From the NCBI GenBank assembly GCA_020832985.1, contig JAJHRE010000005.1, forward strand, positions 1 to 43,686: a stretch of DNA of 43,686 nt, read 5' to 3'. Source of the stretch: Desulfurococcaceae archaeon. Its GTDB lineage: Archaea > Thermoproteota > Thermoprotei_A > Sulfolobales > NBVN01. The translations under genes were made by a program, and so were the position numbers. The notes below the pieces were generated by a model. It made no database searches. It saw only the letters and a program-made list of their open reading frames with translations, and was not told the origin of the DNA. Shown here piece by piece: positions 6,288 to 28,426 of the stretch (position 1 is its first letter; each line of letters opens with the position of its first letter).

Positions 6288-7321
6288 ATGGACATAACGA
6301 TAGTTATAGGAGTGTTGTTGATGTTGTACATAGCGTGGAGTATAGGTGCTAACGATGCTGCAAACCCTACATCATGTGCTGTAGGTGCTGGAGTACTTAA
6401 CATTAAGAAGGCATTAATACTATTCTCAATATTCGTATTCTTAGGTTCTGTCCTACAGGGCTGGATGGTTATGAAGACATTCGGAGGCGGTATAACTGAG
6501 ATTAGAAGTATTTATGATGCTATAGTAGCGACGTTAGCTGCGGGGATATGGATTACATTAGCTTCTTACTTAGGTATGCCTATATCAACAACTCATAGTG
6601 CTGTTGGGGGGTCTTAGGTATAGGCTTAACTCATACGTTACTATACGGTTACACCAGTATAAGATATGACGTCCTCCTTAAAGTCGTGATTAGCTGGATA
6701 ACATCACCGTTAAGTTCTATACTACTCACGTTCACCCTATATAAAACACTAGTAAAACTCTATAAGTTGTTGGAGGTTGGGGGGTTAGACCCTGATAAGG
6801 TCTTCAGGTACTTAGCGATCTTTAGTTTAGCTTTCTCAGCATATAGTTTTGGAGCTAATGATGTAAGTAATTCTACAGGTGTATATGTAGCAATTATAAA
6901 GGTCTCCGGATACAGTGTAGGGGGTATTGATATCGTAGCAGCTATAATCTTAGCAGTTATTGGGGCTTTAGGAATCATCATCGGAGGATTTACAGTTGGT
7001 GCTAAGGTCATAACCACAGTAGCTCTTAAGATAACTAGGTTAGACCTCATAAGCGGTGTTGCCGCCGGGTTATCAAACGCATTAGTTGTTTGGGTATTCA
7101 CTACAATACCGTACATAATGTTCGGGTATGGTATGCCTATATCAACTACCCACGCAGCTGTCTCAGCAGTCATCGGTGCTGGATTATTTAAGGGTAGGTC
7201 AAGGTCTGTCAATAAATCCACAATCATAAACATAGTGAGTTCTTGGTTACTAACAGTCCCACTAACTGCTCTGATAGCATTAGGTTTAAGAATCCTGATA
7301 CATAATATATTGAACGTGTAA
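6288..7321 (+). CDS. PiT-family inorganic phosphate transporter, interrupted by a frameshift
   Basis: ORFs 6288..6617 (SIGANDAANPTSCAVGAG...MPISTTHSAVGG) and 6686..7321 (SFGANDVSNSTG...MPISTTHAAVSAVIGAG) are the two PiT repeats. Adding one base to the G6 run at 6606-6611 continues as VGGVLGIGLTHTLLYGYTSIRYDVLLKVVISWITSPLSS. Confidence 0.9.
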
Positions 7322-14079: not shown

Positions 14080-15210
14080 GTGTCTGCTAAGATATCATCT
14101 ACCTTAACTGTTGTGTTGGTTGTCTTGATTGTTGTTGCTGGTGTTGTTGGTTATTTTGCAGGTTCTTCAGCTGTACCACCACCTAAGACTGTAACTATAA
14201 CTACTACTGTAGGTACTCCAACAACAATAACAACTACAGTAACTACTACAATAACTGAGAAAGTAACAGTTACTATAACACCAACTCCTACACCAACACC
14301 TACAACCCCACCACCTATTGCATGGCCTACTAGACCTGTGACTATAATTGTTGGTTTCGGTGCTGGTGGTGGTAGTGACTTAGCTGCTAGAGCTATAGCT
14401 CCAGTACTTCAGAACTTAACAGGTGTTCCTTGGGTTGTTCAGAATATGCCTGGTGCTGGTGGTGCTATTGCTGAGGCCTACGTAGCTGAACAACCAGCTG
14501 ACGGGTATACAGTACTACTCTACGGTGCTTACGCACTAACTAACATAATTATGGGTAAGAACCCTCATAAGATGGAGGAGTATATACCTATCTGTAGGTT
14601 CCAATGGGATGTCGGTGGTTTATGGGTTAGAGCTGATGATACTAGGTTTAAGACTATTCAAGACTTCATAAACTACGCTAAGGAACGTGAGGTAACTGTA
14701 GGTGGTACTGGATTAGGTGCGGTCCCAGACCACCTGAATACTGCACTACTTGCTAAGTATACAGGTACTAAGTTGAAGTACATCCCCTACGAGTCTGCTG
14801 CTGAGATGAGGACTGACTTACTTGGAGGTAAGATAGATGCTATGATGGAGGAACCAGGTATTATAGTACCCCTAATTAAGGAGGGTAAAGTTAGAGCTCT
14901 AGTATTCTTCATAGATAGGAGGTTAAGTGACTTCCCAGACGTACCAGCAGCTACTGAATTAGGTCTAAACATAACCTACGGTTTATGGAGGGGTCTAGCA
15001 GTCAAGGCTGGAACACCGTCAGAGATAGTTAAGAAGTTAGAATGGTTATGTGAGCAAGCATATAATAGCCCATACTATAAGGAGCAAGAGAAGAGGCAGT
15101 ACCTCTACTACAGGCCTGGATTACTAGTAGGTGATGCGTTCAGAGAATTCGTAAAACAGGAATACTCAACATACTTACAGGTATATAAGGAGCTTGGATT
15201 AGCTAAGTAA
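14080..15210 (+). CDS. tctC: tripartite tricarboxylate transporter substrate-binding protein (TctC family)
   Basis: N-terminal hydrophobic signal, Thr/Pro-rich linker, then WPTRPVTIIVGFGAGGGSDLAARAIAPVL...PGAGGAIAEAYVAEQPADGYTVLL. Confidence 0.92.
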   Translation: MSAKISSTLTVVLVVLIVVAGVVGYFAGSSAVPPPKTVTITTTVGTPTTITTTVTTTITEKVTVTITPTPTPTPTTPPPIAWPTRPVTIIVGFGAGGGSDLAARAIAPVLQNLTGVPWVVQNMPGAGGAIAEAYVAEQPADGYTVLLYGAYALTNIIMGKNPHKMEEYIPICRFQWDVGGLWVRADDTRFKTIQDFINYAKEREVTVGGTGLGAVPDHLNTALLAKYTGTKLKYIPYESAAEMRTDLLGGKIDAMMEEPGIIVPLIKEGKVRALVFFIDRRLSDFPDVPAATELGLNITYGLWRGLAVKAGTPSEIVKKLEWLCEQAYNSPYYKEQEKRQYLYYRPGLLVGDAFREFVKQEYSTYLQVYKELGLAK

Positions 15211-15215
15211 CTTAG

Positions 15216-15710
15216 GTGATGGGAGTGTATGGTGAAATAATAGTTTTTTTATCCCTCCTCATATCTTCTTCATATCTCCTCTACGAAGCTCTTAAACTAC
15301 CTAAGTTACCGTTTGTTGTTATAGGGCCTGAGGTATGGCCTTCAATACTTTTAATAGGTATTATCATATCCTGTATTTCAGCAGTAGTTTACAGGTATGT
15401 TAGGAAGAACTACTATAGACCTCCTAAACTAGGGAGGGGTGGCTTAATCAGGGTGTTAACAACTATAATGTTTATAGTTATTTACGCTTTAGTCTTCGAG
15501 TATATCGGGTTCTTCATATCAACACTATTACTAATCCCGATATATTTAAAGTTCTTGAGGATTAGGACGTTAACATCGTTGGTAGTAGGCTTCATATTTG
15601 CTATGTTAGCACTCCTGTTATTCCCTGTATTTCTACTAATACCGTTGCCTAGAGGGTATGGGGTATTCTACGACTTAACCACATACATACTAGGTTTATT
15701 CGGTAGGTGA
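15216..15710 (+). CDS. tctB: tripartite tricarboxylate transporter small membrane subunit (TctB family)
   Basis: About 164 aa, 4 TM; GPEVWPSILLIGIIISC; lies between tctC and tctA. Confidence 0.8.
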   Translation: MMGVYGEIIVFLSLLISSSYLLYEALKLPKLPFVVIGPEVWPSILLIGIIISCISAVVYRYVRKNYYRPPKLGRGGLIRVLTTIMFIVIYALVFEYIGFFISTLLLIPIYLKFLRIRTLTSLVVGFIFAMLALLLFPVFLLIPLPRGYGVFYDLTTYILGLFGR

Positions 15711-17236
15711 TTACTGTGATGGAGTATCACTTAATCAATATATACCAAGCATTCATATACATAATCACCAACCCTTTAAACATGGGTGTACTGATTCTAG
15801 CATCTTTTATAGGGTTGTTAGCTGGTGCAACCCCTGGGATAACTTCAGTAGCTATTACAGCTATATTACTCCCATTCACTATATGGTTACCTCCAGAAAC
15901 AGCTATAATAGCTTTAGTAGCTGCCTACGCTTCAGCAGTTTACGGTGGTTCTGTCTCAGCAGTACTCTTCAGAATTCCAGGCAGTACTGAGAATATCATG
16001 ACGGCTTTAGATGGTTATGAGTTGACTAAGGCTGGTAGGAGTGGTTTTGCGTTAATGCTCTCTAGATTCTACTCATTCCTAGGTGGTTTAGTAGGAGGTC
16101 TTATAACGTTATTCCTCACACCTATACTAGCTGATGTAGCTGTAATGTTCGGGCCTTCAGAGATGTTCGCCTTAGTCGTTATGGCTATTTCATTCTTAGC
16201 GACATTTGAAGGAGGTGTTAAGGCTGTAATATCAGCCTTACTAGGTTTCTTCTTAGCTACTATAGGTTCAGACCCAGTCACAGGTGTGTATAGGTTTACG
16301 TTTGGGGTAACGATTCTAGGAGGTGGTTTCGACTTAGTCGCGGTTTTACTAGGTATATTCGCTATATCAGAAGTACTTAGGTTACTTGAGTCTGAGTTAA
16401 GGTTTGAGGTTGTTAAGGAGAGGTATAAGTTTAGAGAACTAATGTTCCCTAGTAAGGAATTATTCCTAAGGTTAGCTCCACCAGTCTTCTTAATAGCTGC
16501 CCCCATAGGTTGGTTAATTGGTTTCCTACCAGGTGTTGGGGCTACTACAGCAGCTGTAGTTGCTTACTTAATGGCTAGGAGGTTCTCTAAAAGTCCTGAG
16601 AAATGGGGTACAGGAATTCCTGAGGGTGTTGCAGTACCTGAGACAGCTAATAATGCAGCTGCTATGGGTACTCTAGTACCTACATTAGCCCTAGGTATTC
16701 CTGGAGGTGCTGCAACAGCGATAGTCTTAGGTGCTTTAATGATTCATGGAGTAATTCCCGGTGCGTGGGTATTCACCTACAGAGCTCAGTTAGGTTATAC
16801 AGTACTAGTAGGTACTGTCTTATCTAACGTAGTCTTCTACTTACTAGCACCTGTAGTTATCTACATGTTCTTAAGGTTAGGTGAGTTCTTAAGGAGGAAT
16901 ATACCGTTCTTAGCAGTTATGGTGATATTCTTCTGTGTATTCGGAGCTTACGTAATTAGGAATTCAGTAATAGATATAATAGCAACCCTGATTATAGGTG
17001 TTATCGCTTACGTGTTAAGTAGGTATAAATTCCCGACAGCACCTATGGCTATAGGCTTCGTTTTAGGACCTCTAGCTGAGAAATACTTCAGACGTTCACT
17101 CGATATAGCATTCGGTAATCCACTAGTATTTATATCAAGCCCTATAAGTCAGTTCATCTACATAGCAACCGCACTCGCAATCGTAGTACCTACACTATAT
17201 ACTAGACTTAAAACTCGTAAGGATGTTAAATCTTAA
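15707..17236 (+). CDS. tctA: tripartite tricarboxylate transporter large membrane subunit (TctA family)
   Basis: GLLAGATPGITSVAITAILLP, GSVSAVLFRIPGSTENIMTALDGYELTKAG, GFLPGVGATTAAVVAYLMARRFSK, PETANNAAAMGTLVPTLALGIPGGAATAIVLGALMIHGVIPG. Confidence 0.95.
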   Translation: MITVMEYHLINIYQAFIYIITNPLNMGVLILASFIGLLAGATPGITSVAITAILLPFTIWLPPETAIIALVAAYASAVYGGSVSAVLFRIPGSTENIMTALDGYELTKAGRSGFALMLSRFYSFLGGLVGGLITLFLTPILADVAVMFGPSEMFALVVMAISFLATFEGGVKAVISALLGFFLATIGSDPVTGVYRFTFGVTILGGGFDLVAVLLGIFAISEVLRLLESELRFEVVKERYKFRELMFPSKELFLRLAPPVFLIAAPIGWLIGFLPGVGATTAAVVAYLMARRFSKSPEKWGTGIPEGVAVPETANNAAAMGTLVPTLALGIPGGAATAIVLGALMIHGVIPGAWVFTYRAQLGYTVLVGTVLSNVVFYLLAPVVIYMFLRLGEFLRRNIPFLAVMVIFFCVFGAYVIRNSVIDIIATLIIGVIAYVLSRYKFPTAPMAIGFVLGPLAEKYFRRSLDIAFGNPLVFISSPISQFIYIATALAIVVPTLYTRLKTRKDVKS

Positions 17237-19400: not shown

Positions 19401-20555
19401 TCATATACCTAGAGACTCAATAAGCGTTATTATAATACCTGCGAATATAGGTGATGTTATCTGACCTGCTAAGTTAGTAGTTATTGAGTACATCAAAACT
19501 ATATTACCTGGAGATGCCTTACTAACCTCCCTCTGAACAACCCTAGCAGATATCGGGAATGCTGAGTTTGCTGAAGCACCTATAGCAGGGTTGATCCTAC
19601 CCCTACTCAATATAGAGACTACCTTACCAACTAATATACCGACTACGATATCACCTGCGAAAGCTACTACACCTAAAGTAAATACTGTTAAGACCTTAAA
19701 CGGTAGGTCAGGACTAGCTGTAATTATCTTAGATGATAGTGTAGAACCTACTGAAAGCCCTAGTAGGAAAGTCACTAAGTCCGTCAATACTGTGGAGAAA
19801 GTCTTATTATACCTCTCCACAAACTCAGTCACACCGCACTCACGTAGGAAGTTACCTAGAGCTAACATACCGATTAGAGGTAAACCACCAGGTATGAATA
19901 TCATTGACAGGAGTATCAATACTATTGGGAAGGCAATAACTACTAAATCACTTACGTCCTCACCGGAAGTTACAGGCATCCTAATACTCATCTCCTTCCT
20001 ACTTATTAAAGCCCTCATAAGGGGTACTTGAATTAAGGGGACTATAGAGATATACGTATATGCAGCTAACCCAACAGCCCCTAATAAGTGGGGAGCATAC
20101 TTACTAGATACGAATATAGCTGTAGGTCCGTCAGCACACCCTATAATACCTACAGCTATAGACTCCCTAAAATTAAACCCTAGGAGTAGTGCTAGTATTA
20201 AAGCAAATATAACTCCTGACTGACCTGAAACCCCGAATAAGAGTAGCCAAGGCTTCCTAAGTAATGGTCTGAAATCCATCATAGTACCTATAGTTAGGAA
20301 GGCTAAGCATGGGAGTACCTCAGTCATCAGTAACTTCTCCCTTATCAGGTATAGGAGTCCGTATGGGGGGTCGTTAAGACCGCTGAGTGGGATATTACCT
20401 AATAATATACCGAAACCTATGGGTACTAGCATAAGTGGTTCTAAACCCTTACGACTACCTAAGTATATAAAACATAGTCCAACAACTATTAAAATCAGTG
20501 ATACAGGGTCTGGAATACTTATCATGTTGTTCAGTAATGGCAACAGTACTACCAA
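19401..20555 (-). CDS. sodium ion-translocating decarboxylase beta subunit (OadB/MmdB/GcdB family)
   Basis: Multi-TM; GCADGPTAIFVSSKYAPHLLGAVGLAAYTYISIVPLIQVPLMRAL; NPAIGASANSAFPISARVVQREVSKASPGNIVLMYSITTNLAGQI. Confidence 0.9.
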   Translation of the reverse strand: MVVLLPLLNNMISIPDPVSLILIVVGLCFIYLGSRKGLEPLMLVPIGFGILLGNIPLSGLNDPPYGLLYLIREKLLMTEVLPCLAFLTIGTMMDFRPLLRKPWLLLFGVSGQSGVIFALILALLLGFNFRESIAVGIIGCADGPTAIFVSSKYAPHLLGAVGLAAYTYISIVPLIQVPLMRALISRKEMSIRMPVTSGEDVSDLVVIAFPIVLILLSMIFIPGGLPLIGMLALGNFLRECGVTEFVERYNKTFSTVLTDLVTFLLGLSVGSTLSSKIITASPDLPFKVLTVFTLGVVAFAGDIVVGILVGKVVSILSRGRINPAIGASANSAFPISARVVQREVSKASPGNIVLMYSITTNLAGQITSPIFAGIIITLIESLGI

Positions 20556-20670: not shown

Positions 20671-21459
20671 ATGAGAAAGATTTCGGTGGTTTGTTTGAGG
20701 TTGGTTGGTCGTGTAGCTATTGTTACTGGTGGTGCTAGAGGTATTGGTAGGGCTATTGCTGAGGAGTTCCTTAAGGAGGGTGCTAAGGTAGTTATAGTTG
20801 ATGTACTTGAGGAGGAGTTGATGAGTACTGCTAAGGAGTTGAGTAGGTATGGTGATGTAACAGCAGTAAAAGCAGACATAACTAAGAAAGAAGAGGTTGA
20901 GAAGGTTGTGAAGGTAACGTTAGAGAAGTACGGCAGAGTAGATATACTAGTGAATAATGCAGGTATAGCTATTCAGAAAGCAGCTATTGATATGGATTTA
21001 AGTGATTGGCAGAGGGTCATAGATATTAACTTAACAGCTGTGTTCTTATGTAGTCAGGCAGTTGCTAAGCATATGATTAAGAGTGGTAGGGGTGGTGTGA
21101 TAATTAACATCTCATCTATGCTTGGGTTTATGGGGTTAGAGTTAAGGAGTGCTTATTGTGCAAGTAAGGCAGGTGTTATAGGGCTTACTAAAGCGTTAGC
21201 TGTTGAGTGGGGTAGGTACGGTATTAGAGTTGTCGCGGTAGCTCCAGGTTACGTAGCTACTGAGAGGGTTGTAGATTTAATCCGTAGGGGTATAGTAAAT
21301 GAGGCTGAGTTGAAACGTAGGACACCTCTAGGTAGGTTAGCTAAGCCTGAAGAGGTAGCTAAGTTAGTAGCTTACTTAGCATCTGATGATGCTAGCTACG
21401 TAAATGGGGCTACAGTATTGATAGACGGTGGTTATACCTATAACGCAGGACCTATATAA
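20671..21459 (+). CDS. SDR-family oxidoreductase (FabG-like)
   Basis: AIVTGGARGIGRAIAEEF, NNAGIAIQ, YCASKAGVIGLTKALAVEW, PGYVATERV; start may be the TTG near 20701. Confidence 0.92.
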   Translation: MRKISVVCLRLVGRVAIVTGGARGIGRAIAEEFLKEGAKVVIVDVLEEELMSTAKELSRYGDVTAVKADITKKEEVEKVVKVTLEKYGRVDILVNNAGIAIQKAAIDMDLSDWQRVIDINLTAVFLCSQAVAKHMIKSGRGGVIINISSMLGFMGLELRSAYCASKAGVIGLTKALAVEWGRYGIRVVAVAPGYVATERVVDLIRRGIVNEAELKRRTPLGRLAKPEEVAKLVAYLASDDASYVNGATVLIDGGYTYNAGPI

Positions 21460-21604: not shown

Positions 21605-22939
21605 ATGGTTATGGAGGAGGTAGAACTCTATAAAGATCTGTACCCGTTCGTAGATTTACCACGTATAGTGTTGGGTGGTGGGGATGGTGGAGGTATGTAT
21701 GGTGTTCCTAGTAGGATCTACCTCACAGATACTACCTTAAGAGACGGTCAGCAAGGGTGGAGGAATTTAACTTTTGAGGAGTGTGTTAGGATTTATGAAT
21801 TGTTGGTTGAGTTGGGTGGGGATGGTGTTATAACTACTTGTGAGGTATTTTTATATACTGAGAAGGATAGGAGGGTTGCTAAGGCACTACTAGACCTCAA
21901 CTATAGGTATCCTAAGGTAATAGGGTGGATTAGAGCTTCACTTGATGACTTAAGGTTAGTTATTGATAACGGTTTAGATGAGACCGTAATACTTACGTCA
22001 ATTTCTGACTACCACATATATTATAAGTTAGGACTTACTAGGGACTTAGCTATTAGTAAGTATTTATCAGTTGTTGAGGAGGCTTTGAAGAGAGGTATAT
22101 CCGTTAAGTGTGCTTTAGAGGATATAACTAGGGCTAGCTTAACTAAGAATGTATTACCATTCATCCGTAAGTTGATGAGGTTGAGGGAGAAGTACTCAAT
22201 ACCTGTTAGAATTAAACTCTCAGATACGTTAGGTTTAGGACTACCATTCCCTGAAGTACCACCGCCTAGGGGTATACCATCACTGATTAGGACGTTAATC
22301 TCTGAAGGGTTTCCAGGCGAGGATATAGAGTTCCACGGACATAACGACTTCGGCTTAGTAGTTGCTAACCACCTAGCAGCTTGGATTTACGGTGCTGGAG
22401 GTTCTAACTGTACTTTATTAGGTATTGGTGAGAGGTCTGGAAACTGTCCGTTAGAGGTGATGCTAATACATTACCTAGGACTTAGACGTGATAAGAAGGT
22501 TGACTTAAGGGGTATTAAGAAAGTTGCTGAGTTCTTCACTGAGATAGGGTTTAGAATACCTGAGTTCCAACCAGTGGTAGGTTCTAACGCATTCAGGACT
22601 AAAGCAGGTATCCACGTAGATGGTCTGATGAAGAATCCTGAAGTGTACTTACCTTACGATACAGACCTAATACTGGGGATACCATACACTATATCTATAA
22701 CGCCATATTCTGGTAGGTCAGCGATAGCGTACTGGATCAACACATACTTCAGATTAAGTCGTGATGAAGCTTTAAGTAAGGATGACCCTAGGGTAAGTGC
22801 TGTTTATGAGGAAGTACAACGTATATTCTCGGAAGGTAGGAAGGATGCTTTAAATGATGATGAGATGTTAGCGATAGTTAGGAAGTACATACCGGAGTTG
22901 GTTGAAGGTAGGTTCCGTAGTGTGGGTGTTCATGGGTAG
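21605..22939 (+). CDS. HMGL-family acyltransferase, Re-citrate synthase/homocitrate synthase-like
   Basis: YLTDTTLRDGQQGWRNLTFEE, IKLSDTLGLGLPFPEVPPPRGIPSLIRTL, EFHGHNDFGLVVANHLAAWIYGAGGSNCTLLGIGERSGNCPLEVMLIHYLGL, AGIHVDGLMKNPEVYLPYD. Confidence 0.75.
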   Translation: MVMEEVELYKDLYPFVDLPRIVLGGGDGGGMYGVPSRIYLTDTTLRDGQQGWRNLTFEECVRIYELLVELGGDGVITTCEVFLYTEKDRRVAKALLDLNYRYPKVIGWIRASLDDLRLVIDNGLDETVILTSISDYHIYYKLGLTRDLAISKYLSVVEEALKRGISVKCALEDITRASLTKNVLPFIRKLMRLREKYSIPVRIKLSDTLGLGLPFPEVPPPRGIPSLIRTLISEGFPGEDIEFHGHNDFGLVVANHLAAWIYGAGGSNCTLLGIGERSGNCPLEVMLIHYLGLRRDKKVDLRGIKKVAEFFTEIGFRIPEFQPVVGSNAFRTKAGIHVDGLMKNPEVYLPYDTDLILGIPYTISITPYSGRSAIAYWINTYFRLSRDEALSKDDPRVSAVYEEVQRIFSEGRKDALNDDEMLAIVRKYIPELVEGRFRSVGVHG

Positions 22940-23984
22940 GAAGTATAGGGTAGGGGTTATATACGGGGATGGTATAGGTCCTGAGATTGTAGGTGTTACA
23001 TTAGACGTATTAGAGGGTTTAGGATTTAATGCTGAGTTTATAGAGGTTAAGGCTGGTTATGACTACTACAGACGTTCAGGTAAGGTTATTGAGGATGATG
23101 GAATTAATATCTTAAGGAATGTAGATGCGATACTTAAAGGCCCTATAACAACACCTCTCAACGTACCTAGTTTCAGAAGTGTTAATGTGATGCTTAGACG
23201 TGAGTTAGACTTATACGCTAATGTAAGACCTTTTAAGAGTTTTAAGAGGGTCTCATTAAGAGATTTCAACATAGTCTTGATAAGAGAGAATACTGAAGAC
23301 CTCTACGTAGGTGTTGAAACCCTAGTCTCAGGTGTTGCAGTAGCTTTAAAAGTTATCTCTGAGAGGGCCTGTAGGAGGATAGTAAGGTATGCCTTCAACT
23401 ACGCCCTTAAACACGGGTTTAAGAGAGTTACTGTAGTTCATAAGTCAAACATCTTAAGAGTTACTGATGGTTTATTCAGGGATATATTCTTTGAGGAGTC
23501 TAGAAATTACCAAGTAGAGGTTAATGAGATGATCGTTGATACTACTGCCTATAACTTAGTTAGGAATCCTGAAGTGTTTGGAGTTATAGTTACTGAGAAC
23601 CTATACGGTGATATCCTAGCAGACTTACTAGCTGGGTTAGTAGGTAGTTTAGGACTATGCGGGTCTGCTGAAGTAGGGGATACAGTAGCGTTATTCGAAC
23701 CAGTCCACGGGTCGGCTCCAGACATAGCTGGTAAAGGTATAGCTAACCCTATAAGTCAGTTAATATCAGCTAAGCTAATGTTGGAATACCTAGCTGAGAG
23801 ATTCAGTGATGAGGTATTAACGAGAATAGCTAATGCGTTAGAGTTAGGGATAAAGTCAGTAGTTGAGGAGGGGAAAGTATTAACACCCGACCTTGGAGGG
23901 AGCTCAACAACTAAGGAAGTAGCGTTAGAGGTCTTAAGAAGGAGTAGTACCTATTTAGGAACGCATGCTAGGGCATATCAATAA
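22932..23984 (+). CDS. isocitrate dehydrogenase (probably NAD-dependent), isopropylmalate/isocitrate dehydrogenase family
   Basis: Substrate loop KGPITTPLNVPSFRSVNVMLRRELDLYANVRP has the S-x-N-x3-R isocitrate signature; IRENTEDLYVGVE; HGSAPDIAGKGIANP. ORF track start is 22902; the ATG at 22932 overlaps the upstream stop. Confidence 0.82.
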   Translation: MGRKYRVGVIYGDGIGPEIVGVTLDVLEGLGFNAEFIEVKAGYDYYRRSGKVIEDDGINILRNVDAILKGPITTPLNVPSFRSVNVMLRRELDLYANVRPFKSFKRVSLRDFNIVLIRENTEDLYVGVETLVSGVAVALKVISERACRRIVRYAFNYALKHGFKRVTVVHKSNILRVTDGLFRDIFFEESRNYQVEVNEMIVDTTAYNLVRNPEVFGVIVTENLYGDILADLLAGLVGSLGLCGSAEVGDTVALFEPVHGSAPDIAGKGIANPISQLISAKLMLEYLAERFSDEVLTRIANALELGIKSVVEEGKVLTPDLGGSSTTKEVALEVLRRSSTYLGTHARAYQ

Positions 23985-25685: not shown

Positions 25686-26825
25686 TTAACTGCATAACCT
25701 ATAACGTTTAACCCTCCTATAATTCCTAACCTCAAAATCACTACATACTACACCATTAAGTTCTAAGGACTTAAGAGCCTTATAAACACCTCTTAATGTG
25801 AAATCCTTAAGTTTCTGCCAAATCTCATAAGCAGTTAGGTTGTCATCCCTACTCAGTAAATTGATAATACCTTCTTTAATACCACCCTTCACTACATTCC
25901 TCTTAGTACTTGGTCTATAACCAGCTGTTATAACAGCTATAGAATTTCTTAAATCTTCAGCTACCACATATGCTAATGTTGAGATAGGTTTTAATTTAAT
26001 ACCGTACCTACATAACCTCGTAAATACATCAAGTATTGTTTTAAGTCCTACCTCAACAACTTTCACCTCATTAGGTATTAACTTAGGTCTTGACTGACCT
26101 TTAATGAGGGCTGATACGACATTATAGTTAACATCTAATCCAGACTCCTTAAGCTCCTTAATACCTTTCCATAATGAGTATGTTAGTAAACCAGTTACTG
26201 CCGGTACAACGATATCCTCACACTTAATCCTTTTCTCATATATTTCAAAGACTATAGTCTTTAAACCCTCTATAGTTAGAGGATTTAGATAATCTAATTC
26301 TAGAGCATTACTGTTATTACTAGTTCTCTTACTAGGTATTAAGTTAACACCTAACTCAATCAACTTACCTAACTCATCACTATAGAAATCATTATCACAG
26401 ACCTCAACATCGACTTCGGCAATACCGTTTAAGTAGTAAGATAATGAGTAGGTGAAGTCTTCAGTAAATTTTATTCGTAATCTCTTAATATTACTTGAAG
26501 CTATGTAACTAGCTATTAATGCTGACGCCCTATCTGAGTAAGTCCCTGTAGGATTATACCTCTCATTCTTTATCAATACATTATGAATCCTACTTATCGG
26601 AGTTAATCCCTCACTATGTGTAACTACCCTACTAAAAGTCGGTAGTAAGGTTTCATACCTCCAAATATTTGCTTTACTTTTACATACCTTAAACTTAGGA
26701 TTAAGCCATATAATCTCTAGAGGCCCACCACATACCGGGCACTTCATAAGTATTTCATTAAACTCCCTCCTACAGAATAAGCAGGTTGTGAGAAACTTAT
26801 CACTTCTATCATTACTTAAGGTCAA
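25686..26825 (-). CDS. catalytically degenerate threonine synthase-like protein with N-terminal Zn ribbon and C-terminal winged helix
   Basis: CLFCRREF...CPVCGG ribbon; LTPISRIHNVLIKNERYNPTGTYSDRASA equals the TS lysine loop but with K to S; C-terminal LSRDDNLTAYEIWQKLKDFTLRGVYKALKSLELNGVV. Confidence 0.75.
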   Translation of the reverse strand: MTLSNDRSDKFLTTCLFCRREFNEILMKCPVCGGPLEIIWLNPKFKVCKSKANIWRYETLLPTFSRVVTHSEGLTPISRIHNVLIKNERYNPTGTYSDRASALIASYIASSNIKRLRIKFTEDFTYSLSYYLNGIAEVDVEVCDNDFYSDELGKLIELGVNLIPSKRTSNNSNALELDYLNPLTIEGLKTIVFEIYEKRIKCEDIVVPAVTGLLTYSLWKGIKELKESGLDVNYNVVSALIKGQSRPKLIPNEVKVVEVGLKTILDVFTRLCRYGIKLKPISTLAYVVAEDLRNSIAVITAGYRPSTKRNVVKGGIKEGIINLLSRDDNLTAYEIWQKLKDFTLRGVYKALKSLELNGVVCSDFEVRNYRRVKRYRLCS

Positions 26826-27424
26826 TTCTTCACCATAGACAGGAAATACTCGTAGAGTTTCCTTTCAGAAGTTACTTCAGGATGGAATGTCACAGCTAAT
26901 AACGGACCCTGAACAGCAACTATACCTACCCTACCTACTACTGGGTGGTTTAAGTAACTAATTATCTTAGCCGGGTCTCTAGCATCTATAATTCCAGGAG
27001 CTCTTATGAATACCGCATTAACATCACCTATACCTTCAACATAGACTTTAGTTATGAAGGAGTCTTTCTGCCTCCCGAATATATTCCTAATAACTGTTAT
27101 ATTCATGAGCTTTAGTATTGGTTGATTAACCTCTCCAACAACTCTATCTACGACCTTACTAGCTAGTAAGATAGCACCAGCACAAGTACCCATCACAGGC
27201 ATCCCACCCTTAACGAAATCCGTAATACCCTCATCAAGACCTTTAAACTTAATTAAACGTCCTATAGTTGTAGACTCACCTCCAGGTATTATGAGTGCGT
27301 CGAGGTCTCTAAGATGACTTGAGCACTTCACTAAAACTACATCTAAGTTAAATAATTCTCTTAATGCCTGCACATGTTCGAGGAAGTCTCCTTGAAGTGC
27401 TAAAACACCTACTCTCACCTTCAC
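26822..27424 (-). CDS. pdxT: pyridoxal 5'-phosphate synthase glutaminase subunit PdxT
   Basis: [59 protein letters not shown]. Confidence 0.95.
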
Positions 27425-28426
27425 TTACCTCTAACCTGCATTAACTCCTCTGGTTTAAGATTTCTCACATCAATTCCCAGCATTGACGCTTTTTCAGAAA
27501 CCATTTTCTGAGCTTCAACAACTACTTCAGGGTTGTCGTAAAACGTAGTTGCTAGAACTATAGCTTTAGCCCTCACCTCCGGATCCTTACTCTTAAAAAT
27601 ACCTGAACCAACGAATACACCATCAGCTCCTAACCACATCATCAACGCTGCATCTGCAGGTGTTGCTATCCCACCAGCTGCGAAATTCACTACCGGTAAT
27701 CTCCCTAACCTAGCCGTTAACAACGCTAATTCGAAGTTAACCTTATTCTCTTTAGAGTATATGTATATAGACTCAACATCTCCAGTCATATAATAACCTC
27801 TTAATAGAGCTATATCCCTATTCACAAGCTTCATATGCTTTACCGCCTCAGCGACATTCCCAGTCCCCGGCTCACCCTTAGTCCTAATCATAGATGCACC
27901 CTCAAATATACGTCTTAACGCTTCAGGTAAGTTCCTAGCACCATTAACAAATGGTGTTTTAAACACCCACTTATTTATGTGCTTTCTCATCAACTGGTGT
28001 TAAAACCTCACTCTCATCTATTAAGTCAACACCTACCTCCTCAAGCAACCTAGCCTCCCAACTATGGCCTATCCTACATTTAGCAGATACTGGTATAGTT
28101 ACAGACTCCATAACCTGAGTAATAACGTTTAAATCAGCTGTCCTAGCAACACCCCCAGCCATCCTGACATCATATGGGAGTTTATCTAGTACCATAACAC
28201 CAACAGCACCTGAATCCTCAGCAATACCTGCTTGTTCAGTGGTAGTTACATCCATTATAACCCCACCCTTAAGCATCGATATAAAACTGTATTTAATTAA
28301 TGGTGTCCCAGTCTTTAACGGAATTAATTCCTTACCTTCATCTCTAACTTTATCTCTGAATTCAAGTAGATTATATATGAGGTCATACAGTTTCTCTAGG
28401 AATACGTAGGAGTCAACCAACTTCAT
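27421..28426 (-). CDS. pdxS: pyridoxal 5'-phosphate synthase lyase subunit PdxS, interrupted by a frameshift
   Basis: ORF 27971..28426 ([33 protein letters not shown]...[12 protein letters not shown]...[12 protein letters not shown]) continues in another frame as ORF 27421..27993 ([25 protein letters not shown]...[11 protein letters not shown]...[30 protein letters not shown]). Confidence 0.93.

Follow-up and report, generated by a model that had tools for sequence, protein, structure and literature searches.

A putative Re-type citrate synthase paired with a probable NAD-dependent isocitrate dehydrogenase in a Desulfurococcaceae archaeon

The window analyzed here, a 43,686-nucleotide stretch of the genome of a heat-loving Desulfurococcaceae archaeon, carries two adjacent genes (Table 1) that most likely (with a probability of about 0.87) encode a Re-type citrate synthase (Re-CS) and an NAD-dependent isocitrate dehydrogenase (IDH). 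In the predicted, oxidative direction, the synthase would condense acetyl-CoA with oxaloacetate into citrate in a metal-dependent reaction of Re stereochemistry; the aconitase step would fall to LeuC/LeuD-type proteins, whose genes most relatives carry within the operon and which, in the window lineage, would be encoded at another site or do double duty in leucine synthesis; and the dehydrogenase would use NAD to convert isocitrate into 2-oxoglutarate, the precursor of glutamate. This arm would replace Si-citrate synthase (Si-CS), AcnA, and NADP-IDH. The sequence-only reading that preceded our analysis had proposed that the pair makes 2-oxoglutarate from oxaloacetate and acetyl-CoA instead of serving leucine or lysine synthesis; phylogeny, the searches for gltA and leuA, and the dehydrogenase motif support it. 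While Re-CS activity itself is already known, the gene assignment in an archaeal clade, the LeuCD-type operon, and the proposed module exchange are new.

Table 1. Coordinates of the gene pair, its overlap, and the upstream gene in the window.
Feature	Position	Strand	Details
Short-chain dehydrogenase	20671..21459	+	Directly upstream of the synthase in the window and in two relatives (G004, G005)
HMGL-family (DRE-TIM) synthase, putative Re-citrate-synthase type	21605..22939	+	444 aa
Two-frame overlap ATGGGTAG	22932..22939	+	8 nt
Iso_dh protein, putative NAD-type isocitrate dehydrogenase	22932..23984	+	350 aa; motifs RSVNVMLRRELDLYANVRP, HGSAPDIAGKGIANP

Both open reading frames are present, as are both motifs quoted for the HMGL-family protein. 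The overlap reported between the synthase stop (TAG, 22937-22939) and the dehydrogenase ATG is also there, but it is slightly longer than a stop/ATG overlap; we prefer the ATG at 22932 to the TTG at 22902 of the mechanical ORF call, which was dropped. The overlap suggests that the two genes may be translationally coupled; the stretch upstream of 21605 showed no convincing promoter. The pairing is not due to chance because synthase orthologues (73-75% identity) occur in the same gene order in two relatives (G004 and G005) and the family is carried by 58 of the 398 genomes that were sampled from the phylum. The upstream short-chain dehydrogenase is possibly unrelated to the citrate genes.

Several other genes in the window deserve mention in their own right. 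A complete TctC/TctB/TctA tricarboxylate-type transporter (14080-17236, + strand) and the beta subunit of a Na+-oxaloacetate decarboxylase (19401-20555, - strand) lie no more than 8 kb from the citrate genes, and the order decarboxylase beta subunit, short-chain dehydrogenase, synthase, IDH is conserved in one of these relatives (G005, locus L091). The pdxS gene (27421-28426, - strand) is broken by a frameshift, perhaps an assembly error, into two overlapping ORFs, both matching SOR/SNZ (model positions 4-110 and 108-207); a PHO4-type phosphate transporter (6288-7321, + strand) is likewise split, and neither of its two ORFs covers the middle of the model. A PALP (threonine-synthase-like) protein (25686-26825, - strand) is a weak match (44 bits) in which the SFKDR stretch that holds the PLP lysine reads TYSDR; it may be a relative that lacks catalytic activity and carries an extra C-terminal region.

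What kind of synthase is it? Like Re-CS, which belongs to the HMGL/DRE-TIM superfamily and is unrelated to Si-CS, the protein has an HMGL-like domain (PF00682, 122 bits) and HCS_D2, no Si-CS domain, and a predicted fold like those of homocitrate synthase (HCS) and isopropylmalate synthase (IPMS); its partner is an Iso_dh protein (PF00180, 307 bits). Neither protein passes the cut-off of any curated NCBIfam model. The synthase scores at most 158 bits with IPMS models (cut-offs 517-748) and 155 bits with TIGR02146 (homocitrate synthase, LysS; cut-off 413.55); the best curated model, the nifV homocitrate synthase, gives 167 bits, far below its cut-off of 463. This last match is one of the points in favor of the most serious competing explanation, one that we nevertheless consider improbable: that the pair is a homocitrate synthase and a homoisocitrate dehydrogenase that make lysine via the alpha-aminoadipate (LysW) route.

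Phylogeny argues against this alternative. Among 60 relatives, identities fall into two sharply separated ranges: 46-75%, spanning most of the protein, for orthologues and 27-39% for paralogues. In two trees (81 and 61 proteins, the C. kluyveri Re-CS sequence not among them), the family is split from IPMS, HCS, and citramalate synthase (CimA) with 100/100 support and a branch length of 1.54, far from HCS; the synthase groups with bacterial Re-CS homologues (anammox, Desulfovibrio, Thermodesulfatator) and a protein from Ignicoccus hospitalis, a placement that bears out the sequence-only reading. The anchors that tie this group to Re-CS are indirect, Kuenenia through a gene neighbor and I. hospitalis through a cited activity. 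The family contains clade A, home to the window synthase; clade B, which holds the I. hospitalis protein; a clade of bacterial proteins; and clade C (family f31), presumably Pyrobaculum and relatives.

The substrate-site residues narrow the choice further. The catalytic motif DTTLRDGQQ (residues 42-50) and the metal-ligand motif HGHND (244-248) are in place, and the likely metal ligands D47, H244, and H246 are conserved in a 27-sequence alignment; E80 and NCTLLGIGER are specific to the family, from which the H..T.NG and GHPAV/GFPAV signatures seen in IPMS, HCS, and CimA are missing. K168 aligns with the HCS arginine (R133 in T. thermophilus) to which 2-oxoglutarate binds through its distal carboxylate. 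At this position, 58 of 60 family members have R or K, whereas HCS has R, IPMS E or L, and CimA I or V; a basic residue in the family points to a dicarboxylic 2-oxo acid, either oxaloacetate or 2-oxoglutarate, as the probable acceptor. A basic residue here also suits homocitrate synthesis, as does the structural similarity: the predicted synthase structure (pLDDT 92) best matches homocitrate synthase 6ktq (TM 0.76), and the closest solved structure is S. acidocaldarius HCS; a search by sequence turned up no solved structure that carries a Re-CS label. However, while the Sulfolobales enzyme (LysS) shares with the window synthase the DRE-TIM fold and a basic residue in the acceptor-carboxylate site, it is only about 24% identical, belongs to a separate clade, and has the H..T.NG that the window synthase lacks.

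If the synthase itself leaves two acceptors, can its partner choose between them? The isocitrate signature claimed for the dehydrogenase is confirmed: the isocitrate-binding S-x-N precedes LR....LYANVRP in RSVNVMLRRELDLYANVRP. The same motif is present in NADP-IDHs of relatives that have Si-CS and in all operon dehydrogenases examined except one (G242, SIT), from a genome that also has Si-CS. By contrast, isopropylmalate dehydrogenase paralogues lack S-x-N and read like GETSADVIVRLR, and homoisocitrate dehydrogenase (3asj) has GAIR at the aligned site, which speaks against the lysine route. S-x-N favors isocitrate as the likely substrate and therefore citrate as the likely product of the partner synthase; the acceptor chain length, probably that of oxaloacetate, is thus deduced from the IDH. 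The cofactor pocket is of the NAD type (D-I, HGSAPDIAGKGIANP), as opposed to the NADP type (K-Y) HGTAPKYAGK of the long NADP-IDHs of relatives, which combine it with RSLNVAIR.

The distribution of the family is complementary to that of Si-CS. No PF00285 protein (gltA) was found in the window's own genome (82% complete), as expected if the synthase stands in for a missing Si-CS, and in the 398-genome sample Si-CS is present in only 3 of 48 genomes with clade A or B, as compared to 192 of 340 without the family (Fisher p 4e-12, relatedness ignored). The three exceptions are a long-branch synthase without an adjacent IDH (G034), a fragment (G387), and the genome with the altered IDH motif (G242). 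The contrast also holds within family f7, in which three genomes (G036, G055, G266) have the synthase and no Si-CS and one (G046) has Si-CS and no synthase; among the 60 relatives, AcnA-sized aconitases (over 800 aa) are found almost only in Si-CS genomes. A homocitrate synthase would leave this mutual exclusion unexplained. Clade C differs in that all 10 genomes that carry it have Si-CS. Two of its members (L108 and L115) have HGHGD in place of HGHND, and in three genomes that also have Si-CS the clade C gene lies in a LysW-type lysine/arginine cluster (the loci considered are L108, L116, and L120, from Pyrobaculum-sized genomes, and L103); clade C may possibly have changed function, e.g., to homocitrate synthase.

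In 14 genomes (G002, G003, G010, G031, G036, G041, G051, G055, G253, G260, G281, G318, G391, G410), the genes are arranged in the order synthase, LeuC-type, LeuD-type, Iso_dh, and most of the operon LeuD-type proteins have the loop STDHIISGKYKF, unlike leucine LeuD. In some relatives, LysY-, LysZ-, and LysM-type genes adjoin the operon; they suggest a link to lysine or arginine and are compatible with either the homocitrate or the citrate reading because arginine synthesis needs glutamate. The homocitrate reading also draws on the lack of any curated HCS among the proteins found in the window genome; against it, a separate HCS that exceeds the cut-off coexists with the family in I. hospitalis and with the operon in two Pyrodictiaceae-type genomes (G036 and G055), which also encode CimA. 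Elimination thus excludes HCS only in I. hospitalis, P. delaneyi, and one more relative, each of which encodes HCS separately, and not in the window genome.

How, then, would citrate become isocitrate in the window lineage? The window genome (G000), G004, and G005 keep the synthase and the IDH and lack the operon LeuCD, a pattern that points to loss of the adjacent genes in this lineage; in these three genomes, no aconitase-family pair was found besides the leucine-type LeuCD. Either the leucine-type LeuCD also isomerizes citrate, or the gene is missing from three incomplete assemblies. A special promiscuous loop in the leucine LeuD of this lineage was considered and dropped, as AcnA-bearing Sulfolobales-type relatives share the K(Y/H)LKYTDP loop. 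Tentatively, and with slightly less than even odds, we propose that in Thermoproteota without Si-CS the conversion of oxaloacetate into 2-oxoglutarate is carried out entirely by leucine-pathway homologues encoded in one operon: a LeuA-like Re-CS, a LeuC/LeuD-like two-subunit aconitase with the new STDHIISGKYKF loop, and a LeuB-like IDH. This module would be exchanged as a unit against Si-CS, AcnA, and NADP-IDH; in the window lineage, where the operon LeuCD is gone, the leucine LeuCD would serve both pathways, as in an ancient broad-specificity 2-oxoacid elongation pathway.

Links to characterized systems come from bacteria and from Ignicoccus. A scan of named genomes, in which the query combined an approximate bacterial-like consensus, which enters no tree, with real archaeal rows, retrieved 80 bacterial family members, all real loci. 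Bacterial Re-CS homologues score 299-432 bits against the window synthase, as compared to 65-140 bits for IPMS, HCS, and CimA paralogues. Members of the C. kluyveri/anammox/Desulfovibrio type (EC 2.3.3.3) are 41-47% identical to it over 430-441 columns and share the family-specific residues; they differ in having DTTFRDGQQ(A/S)R where archaeal clade A has DTTLRDGQQGW, and, unlike them, clade A has an operon with LeuCD-type and LeuB-type genes. Many bacterial members, from Thermodesulfobacteriota and others (L160, L163, L191, and L178, among others), are about 600 aa long, some 150 aa more than the archaeal proteins, owing to a C-terminal extension. In Ca. Kuenenia hertensis (L169), two ORFs that, by eye, look like succinate-CoA ligase subunits come after the Re-CS-type gene, a setting like that of KSMBR1_RS10820 of K. 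stuttgartiensis, which is 55.1% identical to the C. kluyveri Re-CS (PMC8027424). Two genes downstream of the family member in a Lachnospiraceae genome (L204) is an ORF that, again by eye, resembles an isocitrate dehydrogenase.

In the literature that we found, archaeal Re-CS activity is cited only for Ignicoccus, with no gene named (Jahn et al., 2007, as cited in PMC12016533). I. hospitalis (G045) has IPMS, HCS, and CimA that all exceed curated cut-offs, and no PF00285 protein was found in its genome; a fourth HMGL protein (G045:C1:225340-226632) belongs to clade B and is 49% identical to the window synthase. By elimination, we infer that this fourth protein is the Re-CS of I. hospitalis; it is nearer to the bacterial proteins and lies outside any IDH operon, and the organism has a long NADP-IDH.

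We know of no clade A enzyme that has been assayed in pure form or shown to be active. The four-gene operon is present in Pyrodictium delaneyi Su06 (G055), in which Pyrde_1539 is labelled citrate synthase and Pyrde_1536 isocitrate dehydrogenase (PMC8105010); this numbering fits the order synthase, LeuC, LeuD, Iso_dh. In the available passages of that paper, Pyrde_1539 is not called Re-type, aconitase is assigned to Pyrde_0502-0503 instead, the activities of citrate synthase, aconitase, and IDH are zero in extracts of nitrate-grown cells, with citrate synthase and IDH assayed aerobically, and citrate synthase is not seen in the proteome (PMC8105010). The null assay is weak counter-evidence because Re-CS activity is oxygen-sensitive (PMC12016533).

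The same passages suggest that P. delaneyi uses citrate synthase in reverse and report an active 2-oxoglutarate oxidoreductase (PMC8105010), raising the slim chance that the same enzymes work backward, carboxylating 2-oxoglutarate reductively and cleaving citrate as part of a reductive citric acid cycle. However, Re-CS is treated as an irreversible step (PMC12016533), and 13C labelling showed oxidative synthesis of 2-oxoglutarate in Thermodesulfatator indicus, which has a homologue (PMC12743299); our family includes a member from this genus (L160).

Least probable of all is an isopropylmalate or citramalate synthase acting with 3-isopropylmalate dehydrogenase in leucine or isoleucine synthesis: the superfamily is the same and relatives have LeuC/LeuD-type genes in the operon, but the tree, the curated cut-offs, and the substrate-site residues led us to reject both synthase identities, the dehydrogenase motif differs, an IPMS-type protein is encoded elsewhere in the genome (contig C24), in an ilv/leu cluster beside leuC, leuD, and apparent ketol-acid reductoisomerase and acetolactate synthase ORFs, which answers the question of leuA raised by the sequence-only reading, and in four genomes (G002, G011, G260, G391) the Re-CS-type protein is the sole HMGL acyltransferase-like protein found, neither a curated HCS or CimA nor an IPMS-like paralogue having been detected. 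The only other such protein in the window's own genome is divergent (G000:C40:27876-29021, locus L111) and falls under all curated cut-offs.

A published genome analysis describes citrate synthase as absent from Pyrodictiaceae and most other Desulfurococcales (PMC5556600), a gap that a Re-type citrate synthase acting with an NAD-dependent IDH would fill. Because neither protein reaches a curated NCBIfam cut-off, such genes are easily misnamed as homocitrate or isopropylmalate synthases. If the module proposal is true, an arm of the citric acid cycle is assembled wholly from leucine-pathway-type enzymes. For the missing citrate step, the analysis provides a candidate gene together with a conserved operon and diagnostic residues, which makes direct assays possible.
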